From an uncultured Mediterraneibacter sp. (GTDB lineage Bacteria; Bacillota; Clostridia; Lachnospirales; Lachnospiraceae), in assembly GCA_944384505.1 (NCBI GenBank), contig CALWTQ010000028.1:1-43061 (forward strand): a DNA stretch of 43,061 bases, in the 5' to 3' direction. The notes beneath the pieces are model-generated. The model was not told the origin of the DNA and did not search any database. It saw only the letters and a list, made by a program, of their open reading frames with translations. The translations under genes and the position numbers were made by a program. Position 1 is the first letter of the stretch, and each line of letters starts with the position of its first letter. Shown piece by piece: positions 8,925 to 43,061 of this stretch.

Positions 8925-9373
8925 TTGCGTATACTCCTTTCCCGGCGGATCTTGATAAATATAGGTTTCCGTCCCGCATCTCCACAAGGAAGCATTCGTG
9001 ACATGCCGACAGATCTGCGACGGACCAAAAAACAGCAGGATCCTCTCCGGGTTCTTCGTCTGAGTTCTCCATTTTGATCTGTATATCATTTGGGGACTGC
9101 CATGACCTATGGCGTCTGATCCAGAAAGAATGCCGGATATTTTTCCCGGCCCCTCATTTTATGGATAACAGAAATCTTTCCCTCCTCCTTTCAGCTCTAA
9201 ATTTATTTACCAGGAGCTGCTGTCCTTTGTAAGTGCCATTATAAAAATCTCCGGAGCCCTTTGCAATGTGTTTATTGTTCATAACCCCTGTGAATTCGTT
9301 GATAAATAGCCGGGAAGCTCAATACTTTATCCCACTGCTGTGCATATCTCCCAATGTTGTGTGAATAGCAGTT
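8925..9373. other. Intergenic stretch without a recognised gene
   Basis: About 450 bp lie between the small hypothetical gene and the first foldback repeat. I see no ORF with coding character, no tRNA and no clear terminator here. The right part leads directly into the repeat that begins at 9374. Confidence 0.5.
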
Positions 9374-9724
9374 CAGCTATTTAGCGCACTAACAGTTCCC
9401 GACGAAATGTGTTCGGAAGCGGAGCGGATGGTTTGCGATACGTATTCTGTGAAAGGGGACAGCCGTGCGATGTTCCGTTCCAGAATCCGGAAAATCTAGC
9501 AGGCCGAAGAGATGTTTAAATACAAAGCGGCGCTCCGGGCAACTCGCTCCGCTCAGACAATCCCTGCGCGCCGCTTAACAACATCTCTCCGCCCTAAAGA
9601 TTTTCAGCGGATTCCTCCAAAGTCACATCTCCCGGCTGCCCCCTTCCTCAGAAAGTATACTCAAACCATCCGCTCCGCTTCCTGCGCATTTCCAGACAGA
9701 AGTGTTATTGCCCTAAACAGGCTG
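9374..9724 (+). repeat. Long foldback repeat, copy C (MITE-like)
   Basis: A 351-bp imperfect palindrome. It begins CAGCTATTTAGCGCACTAAC and ends with the reverse complement of CAGCCTGTTTAGGGCAATAA. A 21-bp perfect stem pairs 9415-9435 with 9662-9682. Further in, ATTCTG..GAAAGGGG pairs with CCCCTTCC..CAGAA, and GCGGCGC with GCGCCGC. The apical loop CAACTCGCTCCGCTCAGACA is nearly the same as in the copies at 9796 and 42758, although the arms differ. There is no coding sequence inside. The symmetrical termini suggest a non-autonomous mobile element or a structured RNA gene. Confidence 0.7.
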
Positions 9725-9795
9725 TAAAGCATGAATTGGCGCGGCTTGTGGGCTTTCAACTGCGAAAGTCTTCCGGCCGCGCCTGCTTCCCGCAG

Positions 9796-10135
9796 CAGCT
9801 ATATATTCATTAACTCCCGGCTTGAAAAGCCCAGAAAACAGCCCCATTTTAAGAAAAATTCTGCGGGGATGGAGGGTGGCGACGGGTGCCTTCGGATGGG
9901 GGTTAGGGAAAGTTAAAGCTGCGGTGACAGACGTTAGGGCTGACGGTGGAATTGTCTGAGCGGATGCGAGTTGTCCACCGTCAGTCCTTGCATTTAGTCT
10001 GTCGCCGCAGCTTTTAGTTTCCCTTATCCCCTGTAGCGAAGCCCTGAGCCATCCTCCATCCCCGCAGAATACGTCTTGAGAATGGACTCTGTTTTCGGAC
10101 GTTTCGCATCCGGACGTTAGTGAACTTTATAGCTG
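9796..10135 (-). repeat. Long foldback repeat, copy A (MITE-like)
   Basis: A 340-bp imperfect palindrome. Both ends carry an outward CAGCTATA terminus: CAGCTATATATTCATTAACT at the left, and CAGCTATAAAGTTCACTAAC on the minus strand at the right. Paired arms are 9859-9879 with 10049-10069 (21 nt, one mismatch), 9915-9932 with 9997-10014 (18 nt, one mismatch) and 9940-9950 with 9974-9984 (11 nt, perfect). The minus strand aligns in order with copy B at 42758. It lies 72 bp after copy C and ends just before the mecA promoter. There is no coding sequence inside. Confidence 0.75.
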
Positions 10136-10153
10136 CTCTCTAGTATTTTTTTC

Positions 10154-10182
10154 TTTACATCTTCTGCTTTTTTGTTTATACT
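10154..10182 (+). promoter_or_regulatory. Probable mecA promoter
   Basis: TTTACA (10154-10159) and TATACT (10177-10182) are separated by 17 bp, 70 bp before the mecA start and 19 bp after the end of foldback copy A. The match to consensus is moderate. Confidence 0.55.
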
Positions 10183-10252
10183 GAACATGGAAATATGTAT
10201 CCAAATCATTTTGGCGTGCATATTATCTTATATAGTATAAGGATGTGATTCT

Positions 10253-10963
10253 ATGAAAATTGAGAAGCTCAATGAAAATCAGATTCGTTGTACACTGACA
10301 CACGCTGATCTGGCAGCCCGCCATCTGAAGCTGAGCGAGCTTGCCTATGGTACCGAGAAAGCAAAATCATTGTTTCGCGACATGATGCAGCAGGCATCCT
10401 TTGACTTTGGATTCGAAGCGGAAAATATTCCGTTGATGATAGAGGCAATCCCTTCTTCCGCCGATTCAATCGTCCTTATTATTACAAAGGTAGAAGATCC
10501 GGAAGAGCTGGACACGCGGTTTTCAAAATTCACACCTGCTGCAGACGCAGATACGCTTAATTTTGATACCCTTGAAAAGCTGGAGGGAGCAGATGAATTT
10601 CTGAATCTGCTTAACAAGGTAAAGGAGGCCGCCGCAGGGATTCCTTCTCAGAAAGAAGCACCTGCTGAATTTGCAGTGCGGCTTTTCTCATTCGCAGCGC
10701 TGGACGGAGTAATCCAGGCTTCACGGCTTCTCGCACCAGTATATGCAGGAGCGAATACTCTGTATAAAGATGAAGAAAACAATATATTTATCCTCGCCCT
10801 TGCGCCGTCCTCACACACTGACAATGAATTCAACAAAATCTGCAACATGCTTTCAGAGTATGGTTCTCCCGAAAAAGCCGATGCGCCTACGCTCGCTTTT
10901 CTGGAAGAACACTGTGCGGTTATCGTATCGTCTGACGCCGTACAAAAGCTGGCTCAGCTCTAG
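10253..10963 (+). CDS. mecA: MecA-family adaptor protein
   Basis: This 236-residue cytoplasmic adaptor is expected to deliver substrates to the ClpC AAA+ protease. The N-terminal MecA domain begins MKIEKLNENQIRCTLTHADL and contains the family's FRDMMQQASFDFGFEAENIPLMIEAI block (about residues 41-66). A variable acidic linker follows, and then a C-terminal domain (about 150-236) that in the family binds ClpC. AAGGAT precedes the ATG by nine bases. The gene stands alone between a foldback repeat and a bidirectional terminator. In Bacillus MecA controls competence; the client here is unknown. Confidence 0.88.
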   Translation: MKIEKLNENQIRCTLTHADLAARHLKLSELAYGTEKAKSLFRDMMQQASFDFGFEAENIPLMIEAIPSSADSIVLIITKVEDPEELDTRFSKFTPAADADTLNFDTLEKLEGADEFLNLLNKVKEAAAGIPSQKEAPAEFAVRLFSFAALDGVIQASRLLAPVYAGANTLYKDEENNIFILALAPSSHTDNEFNKICNMLSEYGSPEKADAPTLAFLEEHCAVIVSSDAVQKLAQL

Positions 10964-19666: not shown

Positions 19667-19758
19667 TCACTGGAGGGCTGTCGCCCTATGGAAATATGAA
19701 AAGGCGGATCTGTGAAAGTAAACTTTCCCGCTCCGCCTTTTCATATTTCCGCACGGCT
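19667..19758. repeat. 92-bp repeat unit, copy 1, with a 19-bp hairpin
   Basis: This unit is identical base for base to 19803-19894. It contains a perfect 19-bp stem (19690-19708 with 19732-19750; arms begin GGAAATATGAAAAGGCGGA) and a GAAAG/CTTTC helix in the loop. A second small stem GGGCT/AGCCC-like (AGGGCTGTCGCCCTA) precedes it. No coding sequence is seen. Confidence 0.85.
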
Positions 19759-19802
19759 TATGCGCATCGAGCCTTTCCAGTTCGATTCCGCTTCGCTCCA
19801 TC

Positions 19803-19894
19803 TCACTGGAGGGCTGTCGCCCTATGGAAATATGAAAAGGCGGATCTGTGAAAGTAAACTTTCCCGCTCCGCCTTTTCATATTTCCGCACGGCT
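19803..19894. repeat. 92-bp repeat unit, copy 2
   Basis: This is an exact direct copy of 19667-19758, offset by 136 bp, ending seven bases before the stop codon of the SpoIIQ-like gene. The hairpin arms are at 19826-19844 and 19868-19886. On the minus strand it could act as terminator for the sporulation genes. Exact identity implies a recent duplication or gene conversion. Confidence 0.85.
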
Positions 19895-21905: not shown

Positions 21906-22802
21906 TTATAATTCAGTAGTCTGGTTCTGCCCCGGTTCTTCCGGTTTGGGTGAAACCGGCGGCGCTGATGGTTCCGGATGAACCGATGGAACCGGCTGCA
22001 CTGGCGGTTCCGGATGAACCGTCGGCTCCGGGTGACCCGATGGAACCGGCTGCACTGGCGGTTCCGGATGAACCAGCGGCTCCGGATGAGCCGGCGCGCC
22101 CGGATGGACCGGTGGCTCCGGATGAATCGGCGCGCCCGGATGGATCGGCGGAACCGGCGGCGGTGTAAGCTCCGGCTCCATGCCAGACCTGAAATCCTTG
22201 TTTCTCATAACAAACAGGCAGATCGCTTCATACAGCGGAACCGTCACCGACAGCACCGCGTGCACAATTCCCATATTGTGGCTTGTAAATCTTTCATAAA
22301 TCTGTACGCCGATAAGAATTCTCAGCGCCATGTACACAGCCGAATACACAACGGTCAGGATAATCAGGACCACATACATCACAATCAGCATCATAATCCC
22401 GATCCCGGCTCCTCCCCCCACAGTTCCTACTATACTGCTCAGGATGAGGAGAACGATGAGAATCCCCATTATAACTTCAAAAGCAATCGGAAGGATCAGA
22501 TTCCATATCCCCGGATTTCTGACTGTTTTGTTTTTGAGACAGATCTCGCCTGCCAGCTCCCCGTGAAAATAATCTCTTGCAAATGGAATGAATGCCAGCC
22601 ATGAGTGTGTTTTCCCCAGCCTTTTTCCAATCGTATACAAACCGATAGAGTGAAAAATGTAGCTCACCAGCATAAATATGAGGGCCACTGTCAGTACAAT
22701 CAGCCAGATCGACAGAATCGCGCCGAAAATCGTGTCATCTATACTGCTGTGATAGATTGACGGATAATCATACCGATAACCATAGTCATAACTAAAATCC
22801 AT
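21906..22802 (-). CDS. Multi-pass membrane protein with a Pro/His repeat tail
   Basis: The 298-residue protein begins with a Tyr-rich segment, then has about four membrane helices (FGAILSIWLIVLTVALIFML, ILPIAFEVIMGILIVLLIL, GIMMLIVMYVVLIILTVVY and a short one near LYEAICLFVM). GKTHSWLAFIPFARDYFHGELAG resembles the loop of DUF5684-type membrane proteins. The last 85 residues are Pro-rich repeats such as HPEPPVHPGAPAHPEP and HPEPPVQPVPS. I cannot assign a function. It starts 12 bp after glgP with AGGAGG before the ATG and is the last gene of the T-box operon, ended by the hairpin at 21840-21877. The repeats are also repeated at DNA level. Confidence 0.75.
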   Translation of the reverse strand: MDFSYDYGYRYDYPSIYHSSIDDTIFGAILSIWLIVLTVALIFMLVSYIFHSIGLYTIGKRLGKTHSWLAFIPFARDYFHGELAGEICLKNKTVRNPGIWNLILPIAFEVIMGILIVLLILSSIVGTVGGGAGIGIMMLIVMYVVLIILTVVYSAVYMALRILIGVQIYERFTSHNMGIVHAVLSVTVPLYEAICLFVMRNKDFRSGMEPELTPPPVPPIHPGAPIHPEPPVHPGAPAHPEPLVHPEPPVQPVPSGHPEPTVHPEPPVQPVPSVHPEPSAPPVSPKPEEPGQNQTTEL

Positions 22803-28870: not shown

Positions 28871-28881
28871 GTGATTTCTCG

Positions 28882-28922
28882 ATTGGGGACGTAGTAAAAC
28901 CGACTTTTACTACGTCCCCAAT
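28882..28922. repeat. Dispersed hairpin, copy 1 (3' of the sulfatase gene)
   Basis: Perfect 18-bp arms (28882-28899 and 28905-28922; ATTGGGGACGTAGTAAAA and its complement) around CCGAC. It lies seven bases beyond the sulfatase stop codon. The same hairpin occurs at 37245. There is no T tract, so it may be a mobile repeat as well as a 3' end signal. Confidence 0.85.
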
Positions 28923-28928
28923 TGAGAT

Positions 28929-30383
28929 TCACACGTATTCCATCGACTGATCAAAGGCCCCTTCTTTATAGCAGAGGTCTTTCTGCCCGCGTCCGGTTAC
29001 GGCGTGTTTTCTGCCGTCACATTCCGGGACGGAGTATTTCTCAAACCACTCCTCCATGTCGCACTCCATCTCTGCGGCAAGTTCCTTATACCCTCCGTTG
29101 TCCCACAGATTCACAGATTCATCCGGATCGGATTTAAGATCATACAGTTCGTTAAAGTCCGCCTCATAGTGGCGGATAAACTTATATCCGTTCTTTTTTA
29201 TCATACGTGTTCTGCCGTATTCATCGTATACCACAATATCTCTGTCTTTCTGTCCTAACGGGTTCTGAATCAGCGGCAGGAGGCTCGTGCCAGGCTGCAT
29301 GGGTCCGGGAACTGCCTGGCAGCCTGCCAGTTCAAGGATTGTTGGATAGATGTCATACTGACTTACAGGAGTATGGCATACCTCACCTTTGTGCCCGCAT
29401 TCAGGCATCCGGACAATGAAGGGCACTTTCACAGCGCTTTCAAACATATTGGGAGGGAAGGTTCCGTTGCCCTTGCCCCAGATTCCATGATGCCCCATGT
29501 TCATACCGTTGTCCGCCGTAAATATCACAACTGTATTTTCAGCCAGCCCTTTATCCTCCAGAAGCTTCAGGATCCTGCCGACCCCGGCGTCCGCGGCGGA
29601 AACAGCCGCATAATATCCGGTCAGGTTTTCCCTTCGTTTCTCCTTCGTATCTCCCACAGGACAGGTATTGATCTGCCGGGGATTCAAAGGCAGATCCGGT
29701 GTGGATTCAAAGGAGCAGTCTTTGTAAATCTCGAGGAACTCACGGGGATGTTCTTCCGGATTCCACGGGCTGTGGGGCGCCGTATAATGAACGCTCAGAT
29801 AAAACGGCGCTTCTCCGTCCGCAAGTTCTCTGATATCGTCAAGAGCGCGCTCGGTAATCAAGTCCGTCACATAGCGGTCTGAAACAGACATCTCCCCTTC
29901 ATCGCAAATGTCCGGAGAATAGTAGCGGCAGCCGCCCCTTCCGATTGTATACCATCTGCTGAACCCTTTTTTCCGCGCAGCGTTGTCCCCTAAGTGCCAT
30001 TTCCCGCTCAGCGCGCACACATATCCGTTTTCCGCCAGCACTTCCATATAGGTCTTATGGCCGGCCAGATAATCAATCGCCCGGTCATTCATGTCAAAAT
30101 CTTTTAGTTCAGCCATCTGCGGATATTTCCATGCATCCAGGTTGCCTCCGCTGATCCAGTCCTGAACACCATGGCATGAGGGGATCTGCCCCGTCACGAT
30201 GGAGGCACGGGCCGGTGAGCACACCGGAGACGCACAGTGGAACTGGTCAAACCGGACGCCTTCCCGGGCCAGACGGTCCATGCTGGGCGTCTGAATATCT
30301 GTGTTCCCGGCGCAGCCCATGGCCCAGGCGCCCTGGTCATCCATAAGAATGAAAATAATATTTGGTTTTTGTTTTCCGTTCAT
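28929..30383 (-). CDS. Sulfatase (Cys-type, alkaline phosphatase superfamily)
   Basis: The 484-residue enzyme is predicted to hydrolyse sulfate esters of sugars. NIIFILMDDQGAWAMGC gives the metal-binding Asp pair (15-16). SPVCSPARASIVTG contains the CxPxR motif with Cys55, which must be converted to formylglycine. FTADNGMNMGHHGIWGKG supplies the second metal site. There is no signal peptide, so it is cytoplasmic and acts after import. It is the last gene of the SBP-permease-permease operon, eight bases after the second permease. No sulfatase-maturating enzyme is in the window. The substrate class (for example sulfated host glycans) cannot be read from the sequence. Confidence 0.92.
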   Translation of the reverse strand: MNGKQKPNIIFILMDDQGAWAMGCAGNTDIQTPSMDRLAREGVRFDQFHCASPVCSPARASIVTGQIPSCHGVQDWISGGNLDAWKYPQMAELKDFDMNDRAIDYLAGHKTYMEVLAENGYVCALSGKWHLGDNAARKKGFSRWYTIGRGGCRYYSPDICDEGEMSVSDRYVTDLITERALDDIRELADGEAPFYLSVHYTAPHSPWNPEEHPREFLEIYKDCSFESTPDLPLNPRQINTCPVGDTKEKRRENLTGYYAAVSAADAGVGRILKLLEDKGLAENTVVIFTADNGMNMGHHGIWGKGNGTFPPNMFESAVKVPFIVRMPECGHKGEVCHTPVSQYDIYPTILELAGCQAVPGPMQPGTSLLPLIQNPLGQKDRDIVVYDEYGRTRMIKKNGYKFIRHYEADFNELYDLKSDPDESVNLWDNGGYKELAAEMECDMEEWFEKYSVPECDGRKHAVTGRGQKDLCYKEGAFDQSMEYV

Positions 30384-37244: not shown

Positions 37245-37291
37245 TTGATTGGGGACGTAGTAAAAGTCGATTTTACTACGTCCCCAATCAA
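37245..37291. repeat. Dispersed hairpin, copy 2 (3' of the YesN gene)
   Basis: Perfect 21-bp arms (37245-37265 and 37271-37291; core GGGGACGTAGTAAAA) around GTCGA. It is the same sequence as 28882-28922 with slightly longer arms. It begins at the base after the stop codon of the response regulator and lies 19 bases before the end of the convergent ATPase gene. Confidence 0.88.
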
Positions 37292-37309
37292 GATTCACCC
37301 TGTCCCTTT

Positions 37310-42757: not shown

Positions 42758-43061
42758 CAGCTATTTAGTGCACTAACTTCCGTGTGTAAAACGTTCGAAA
42801 ACAGGGGCTATTTCTGAGACGTATTCTGCGGGGATGAAGGATGGCGATGGATTCCGCTCCAGGGATATAAGTGAAACTAAGGGTTCCAGTGACGGACTAA
42901 AGGCAAGGACTGACGGTGGACAACTCGCTTACGCTCAGACAATTCCACCGTCAGCCCTAACGTCCCTCTCTGGAACTCTAAGTTTCACTAATACCCTTCC
43001 GAAGTCATCCATCGCCATCCTTCATCCCCGCAGAATTTTTCTCGAAATGGGGCTGTTTTCT
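42758..43061 (+). repeat. Long foldback repeat, copy B (truncated by the window end)
   Basis: The element starts CAGCTATTTAGTGCACTAAC and runs to the window end; the right terminus is not seen. A perfect 28-bp stem pairs 42824-42851 with 43008-43035 (ends TTCTGCGG/CCGCAGAA). Inner pairs are 42870-42878 with 42981-42989, 42883-42889 with 42970-42976, and 42910-42920 with 42944-42954. The apical loop is CAACTCGCTTACGCTCAGAC. It aligns in order with the minus strand of copy A, with compensatory changes in the arms. It lies 80 bp upstream of the dacA start. Confidence 0.78.

Follow-up and report, generated by a model that had tools for sequence, protein, structure and literature searches.

A dispersed family of paired long hairpins with a conserved apical loop in an uncultured Mediterraneibacter sp.: a candidate mobile repeat

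The draft genome of an uncultured Mediterraneibacter sp. contains a dispersed, multicopy family of elements with sharp ends, in which two homologous foldbacks follow each other in inverted order. The stems covary strongly, the apical loop is conserved in distant bacteria, and the elements are located just behind stop codons. The best explanation, to which a probability of roughly 55% can be given, is a non-coding and non-autonomous mobile repeat, in which two long hairpins stand head-to-head, enclosed by short inverted ends. The same tip is present in unrelated bacteria on stems whose changes are matched, and this points to a type of mobile hairpin element not described before.

Element layout and copies in the host genome

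The window is the entire contig C28 (1-43061; 43,061 nt) of the host draft genome (G000). It contains one complete element, copy A, of 762 bp (9374-10135, minus strand), delimited by both inverted ends and by full-length blastn relatives, which are 88-91% identical to it within the same genome. A search for 20-bp ends placed the left end, CAGCTATAAAGTTCACTAAC, at 10116-10135 and the right end, GTTAGTGCGCTAAATAGCTG, at 9374-9393, both on the minus strand. Folded as a single strand, copy A forms two foldbacks of ~340 nt each, H1 and H3, which are separated by a short hairpin, H2; its folding energy is -401 kcal/mol, whereas 20 shuffles average -253 (z -18). On the minus strand, H1 occupies 9796-10135 according to the fold, H2, with the stem GGCGCGGC/GCCGCGCC, lies at 9738-9783 (fold and sequence), and H3 (9374-9726) was recognised by consensus alignment as a diverged, inverted copy of H1. 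In this alignment H1 and reversed H3 are identical at 225 of 320 aligned positions, with a score of 236 against 121 (sd 9) in shuffles; in the direct orientation, which is palindromic as well, the score is 159.5. The general layout is that of 20-bp inverted ends around two ~340-nt foldbacks in opposite orientation.

Copy B (42758-43061, plus strand; delimited from sequence and alignment) belongs to a second element and comprises its H1-type foldback, cut short where the contig ends; its inverted end, CAGCTATTTAGTGCACTAAC, was found by the same end search at 42758-42777 (plus strand). The preliminary description of this DNA had aligned both copies with each other, which has been borne out (85% identity over 195 nt and 78% over 108 nt), and the matched stem blocks that it named, GTTCCAG/CTGGAAC in B and GCTGCGG/CCGCAGC in A, are present in the sequence. 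The extent then given for copy A, 9796-10135, had to be corrected, being only the first foldback of the complete element.

A covariance model, R2, trained on 42 rows that included both domains of copy A and excluded copy B, finds exactly three places in the window (E 6.9e-25, 1.6e-23 and 2.3e-20). The apical domains concerned are those of H1 of copy A (9912-10013, minus strand, loop at 9952-9973; 105.5 bits, training row), of H3 of copy A (9500-9600, plus strand, loop at 9540-9560; 88.1 bits, training row) and of copy B (42881-42982, plus strand, loop at 42921-42942; 100.2 bits, not a training row). The nearly invariant loop claimed earlier for three copies was recovered at these three places, the reversed control pattern giving 0 matches in the genome; the number three holds for the loops, but what had been taken for a third copy is H3 of copy A, seen on the other strand.

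Across the 3.95-Mb draft genome, 171 right-type and 185 left-type ends were found with at most one mismatch, the control giving 0 for either type. Counted by ends, these amount to ~178 element equivalents, many of them at contig ends, and elements fill, as roughly estimated from their sizes and the end counts, ~3% of the genome. Both ends could be delineated in 54 distinct elements of the loci fetched, of which 35 measure 755-772 bp and 19 measure 400-600 bp. Pairwise identity among the 35 full copies ranges from 77 to 98% (median 84%), that of nearest neighbours being mostly 87-94%, so that no recent burst is seen.

Several other features were noted in passing. At loci L015, L029, L035, L047, L051, L056, L059 and L060 the element is abutted by a further, degenerate copy of the outermost 7-16 nt of an end, perhaps as the trace of an earlier insertion or loss, and two contig ends, L030 and L069, which carry the same 75 nt beside different elements, are perhaps the two sides of one assembly break. 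The window also holds two identical 92-nt direct copies, spaced 136 nt and each with a 26-nt inverted repeat (19667-19894); a series of 18-nt tandem repeats (21951-22166) within an open frame (21906-22802, minus strand); and two near-perfect hairpins, GATTGGGGACGTAGTAAAA..TTTTACTACGTCCCCAAT, of another repeat family, 8.3 kb apart and 87% identical (28877-28932 and 37245-37298).

Covariation and the folded strand

Alignment A1 comprises 42 apical domains of the genus, chosen from 78, with near-duplicates and other taxa left out. Changes on both sides were found in 31 of its 34 pairs, 88.0% of the 1422 cells pair, and double changes number 440. The covariation score reaches 0.737, with the structure fitted to A1 itself; 500 shuffles, in which relatedness is lost, average 0.230 (sd 0.011, none reaching 0.737), and slid controls, in which it is kept, give at most 0.216. 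Moreover, nearly the same structure is returned by RNAalifold unaided. The earlier claim that pairing is kept while the sequence drifts agrees with these values.

The conserved apical loop follows the pattern CAACTCGC-N2-5-GCTCAGACAA, and its invariance in A1 is due to the loci having been picked by that pattern. The internal loop, TAAANNCA opposite AAC, was not a selection criterion and is conserved at 90% or more at most positions of A1. Among 51 usable helices (55 stem contexts), the apical stem shows a Watson-Crick pair at the 15th position in 46 and at the 16th in 10, which indicates a stem nearly fixed in length and variable in sequence.

In the 35 full copies, considering 157 pairs predicted on both strands, double Watson-Crick changes account for 7 of 91 variants seen once, 11 of 35 present in two or three copies and 33 of 41 shared by at least four. 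Compensation would rise with sharing in this way if single copies decayed and the lineages that spread were only those with an intact hairpin; the argument is weakened by the fact that older, shared variants had more time for compensation, which explains part of the trend.

Mismatches are lopsided. On the CAACTCGC strand of A1, A.C occurs 69 times and G.T 26 times (p 1.2e-5 if cells were independent, which they are not); counted by sequence, the ratio is 26 to 6 with 10 ties, and by distinct kinds 32 to 18. Apical stems of the genus give A.C 22 against G.T 4. In the full G000 copies, H1 shows A.C 30 and G.T 19, and H3, which is inverted, A.C 20 and G.T 37. Other taxa are balanced (A.C 7, G.T 7; 36 usable stems of 57). 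This asymmetry makes it look as if, in the genus, TTGTCTGAGC..GCGAGTTG were the strand that folds, either as RNA or as single-stranded DNA.

Distribution across bacteria and polarity of neighbouring hairpins

Related genomes were searched with the covariance model, as had been suggested when the element was first described, and 48 of 58 genomes of the genus gave matches (E <= 0.001), from 0 to at least 69 per genome, the latter figure being reached in both G000 and G026. The exact loop is found in 20 of the 58, and it is rare in the phylum, with 3 of 398 genomes in an even sample that includes the host genome. A collection of contigs amounting to 257 billion bases yielded at least 91 stretches with the exact loop, for which ~30 chance matches are expected by estimate; matches inside long open frames (L217, L223 and L237) are examples of the latter. 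The longer exact loop pattern gave no match in this collection, nor did the exact pattern in the viral contigs of IMG/VR, nor the element itself in a blastn comparison with plasmids and phages.

Among the matches listed, carriers outside the genus include Nitrospirales, Marinobacter, Polaromonas, Undibacterium, Porticoccaceae, Methylococcaceae and Mucispirillum bins, as well as Phascolarctobacterium, Anaerovibrio, Anaerocolumna, Enterocloster and others. In 30 genomes chosen for having the loop, up to 16 exact loops per genome were counted, with 0 in the controls, and a loop repeated in this way in one genome cannot be due to chance. Furthermore, R2 found matches in all 18 of the loop-bearing genomes chosen for it (E <= 0.05), up to 63 in number. 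In distant taxa the loop caps hairpin stems of different, unrelated sequence, and the elements are shorter than the ~340-nt foldbacks of the genus, their limits being approximate. The ends of the elements also differ between species, reading CAGCTAT in the host and AAATCTG in G044 and G086.

Neighbouring hairpins are mostly, though not universally, head-to-head. Among the matches listed, R2 neighbours less than 1 kb apart run plus then minus in 14 of 14 cases, as do H1 and H3; these come from seven genomes (Marinobacter, Anaerovibrio, Undibacterium and Anaerocolumna). In 37 chosen loci the order was plus-minus in seven neighbours, minus-plus in one (L246), plus-plus in one (L296) and minus-minus in two (L295 and L297), and neighbours with the exact loop stand in tandem in G100 (Nitrospirales) and G102 (Porticoccaceae). 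One large palindrome built from two halves occurs in Polaromonas (L204 and L241) and Undibacterium (L362).

By eye, the loci L292-L300, from Undibacterium, Polaromonas and Nitrospirales, have in common a second hairpin module upstream, CCGG..CCGG followed by a CTTTTCTTTGCTTCGCCAAAGAAAAG-like string, besides the loop; searches with the strings of this module returned only unrelated literature. For the loop, no paper on a bacterial repeat was found, the short-string matches listed being primers and, by title, eukaryotic work. Longer loop strings likewise gave no paper, though an earlier, unnamed prediction may exist in a supplementary motif list. No name for a factor recognising the loop was found in the literature on either the loop or the second-module strings.

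Genomic context, alternative explanations and known systems

A simple ORF caller assigned the 108 flanks of the 54 elements to gene 3' ends (41), gene 5' ends (46) or neither with certainty (21). In 25 of the 41 the stop codon is within 0-9 nt of the element (median 7), whereas no start among the 46 is that close (median 88.5; Fisher p 2.4e-11). Elements of G044 and G086 often begin, by eye, directly behind a stop codon, but in both genomes together the caller placed only 7 of 14 facing 3' ends, and also 2 of 15 facing starts, within 9 nt, counts which include L165 (G086), wrongly bounded at 1949 bp. One orthologous site without the element was found in Marseille-P3244 (L216, against L035 with it; flanks 79% and 77% identical), and to judge by eye L035 carries its element in the terminal coding part of a gene. 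Copies that occupy orthologous sites in several species (L039 with L152 and L089; L024 with L191; L054 with L106) are not counted as evidence, since mostly element-bearing loci were compared and about the same number is expected by chance.

This preference for stop codons is also what a structured RNA of mRNA 3' ends would show, in which the folded readthrough RNA would end, protect or process transcripts, or be released separately. The covarying stems, with 31 of 34 pairs changed on both sides, would be expected there too and would in so far count against the mobile reading, and to these may be added the conserved internal (TAAANNCA/AAC) and apical loops and the mismatch asymmetry, which looks as if one strand folded with G-U pairs (A.C 69 and G.T 26 being read on the other strand). 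However, copy A is flanked by two genes that are both read away from it, the scan found no promoter-like site inside it, and readthrough from adjacent genes would not first yield the favoured strand, UUGUCUGAGC..GCGAGUUG. Where the neighbouring genes of other taxa all run in one direction, the loop shows no strand bias, with 6 sense and 7 antisense cases; pairs are mostly broken by private changes; and an RNA motif would not need the inverted copies H1 and H3. A terminator scan of 9250-10260, which allows loops of 3-8 nt only, gave one weak site, against 1.2 in shuffles; by eye, however, GCAGAATTTTTCT comes after one long arm of H1 in the consensus. In agreement with the earlier remark that the element resembles no repeat class that could be named, no Rfam family fits: the window matches only rRNA and tRNA, 18 related loci match nothing, and the best score below threshold in copy A, 31 of 168 bits, belongs to eukaryotic miRNA hairpins and is far under the gathering score. 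An RNA of this type is considered unlikely, though it is the strongest rival of the mobile repeat. For human microbiomes, PMC8040213 reports 250 palindromic candidates for structured RNAs, of which 20 lack a predicted terminator, and the element may be one of the 250.

An ordinary MITE, whose inverted ends would be recognised by a classical transposase and whose hairpins would be incidental, accounts for the 20-bp inverted ends, for the high copy number, for the lack of any listed open frame inside copy A and for internally deleted forms such as the 19 of 54 copies of 400-600 bp. Nevertheless, direct repeats of 3 nt or more, as left by target duplication, were present at the ends of 0 of the 54 elements, and the loci fetched showed no partner insertion sequence (the transposase screen of the host genome being for PF01797). 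Moreover, the ends vary between species and the inner loop is kept, which is the reverse of end recognition, and the stems covary. All this makes a MITE quite improbable.

A true REPIN mobilised by a host RAYT, although it would agree with the inverted, intergenic hairpin pairs, their species-specific stems, the RAYT-like genes of many of the genomes and the element of L066, which lies in an interval holding a RAYT-like gene in four relatives, is the most doubtful reading, given that the GTAG or CGTC tag is missing (GTAG 3, CTAC 3, CGTC 2 and GACG 1 in 108 ends, a chance-like result), that 7 of 37 genomes, several of them drafts, have no PF01797 match and that 20 RAYT-like loci contain 3 weak loop matches, with ~6 expected by chance. 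Six of the seven genomes do have R2 matches (G036, 19; G085, 42; G089, 63; G105, 20; G092, 3; G102, 4), and RAYT as an obligatory partner is rejected on account of these and of a loop not above chance at RAYT-like loci. With regard to the L066 site itself, the element occupies 351-1112 of that locus (G000, contig C2), the RAYT-like gene stands between the same neighbours in L334, L338, L339 and L330, and in G044 and G080 the RAYT-like gene at the equivalent site is bordered by GGGGTCAGACCCC-type palindromes.

The preferred reading remains that of a mobile repeat. At the outset a structured RNA had been set against a mobile repeat; strong covariation and mobile-repeat patterns have been found together. 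Covariation alongside inverted ends, ~178 copies, an orthologous site without the element and mostly uncompensated private changes suggests that the hairpin structure may serve the spread of the repeat. That a factor acting in trans recognises the folded strand is suggested by the inverted duplication, by the polarity usually seen and by the conservation of the loop across phyla. A putative protein would read the conserved loop on the folded strand, whether DNA or RNA, and would copy or move the element, preferably to gene 3' ends; copies would then decay in place, and only those keeping the hairpin would spread again. PF01797 and neighbour-gene comparisons revealed no partner enzyme, and no neighbour gene recurs across phyla, the clusters obtained being ABC and LysR type proteins, frames inside repeats and RAYT/IS200 loci fetched on purpose. 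These negative results weigh against the mobile reading, as do the lack of a target duplication, the want of a recent burst among the full copies and a polarity that is not universal.

A shared factor that recognises the loop is implied by its occurrence on unrelated hairpins in Lachnospiraceae, Negativicutes, Proteobacteria and Nitrospirota. A wider proposal, for which the odds are put somewhat short of even, is that of a superfamily of mobile hairpin pairs, mostly head-to-head, extending over several phyla, in which only the hairpin geometry and the loop would be kept and a widespread putative enzyme would read them on the folded single strand. The loop pattern and model R2 provide a handle on the partner enzyme, on transcription and on mobility.

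As regards known systems, the large structured RNAs OLE, GOLLD and ROOL also combine a long covarying structure with conserved internal loops; the element differs from them in its ~178 copies in one genome, its symmetric inverted duplication and the lack of an Rfam match. Eukaryotic foldback transposons have long palindromic ends and a short middle, whereas in the present element either end forms a hairpin of its own, capped by a conserved loop. With MITEs, for which the consulted part of PMC3733652 gives a size of 70-300 bp, the element shares inverted ends, the lack of coding capacity, dispersal and insertion near genes, and it departs from them in the absent target duplication, the ends that vary between species, the covarying stems and its 762 bp. 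The closest likeness is to REP, BIME and REPIN sequences, which are described in the consulted parts of PMC3733652 and PMC3116915 as intergenic palindromes with species-specific stems, arranged in inverted pairs, present in many copies and often near gene 3' ends. Inverted pairing was found here in H1/H3 and in the 14 of 14 neighbours among the matches listed, with tandem order in Nitrospirales and Porticoccaceae. Unlike REPs, which measure 20-40 bp and carry a GTAG or CGTC tag (same part of PMC3733652), the units are ~340 nt long in the genus, tagless, conserved in the apical loop and without a link to RAYT. The element is accordingly filed with the intergenic mobile palindromes, and not as a member of REP or MITE; by analogy, the REPIN, in which paired REP hairpins are mobilised in trans, would offer the closest working model for it.
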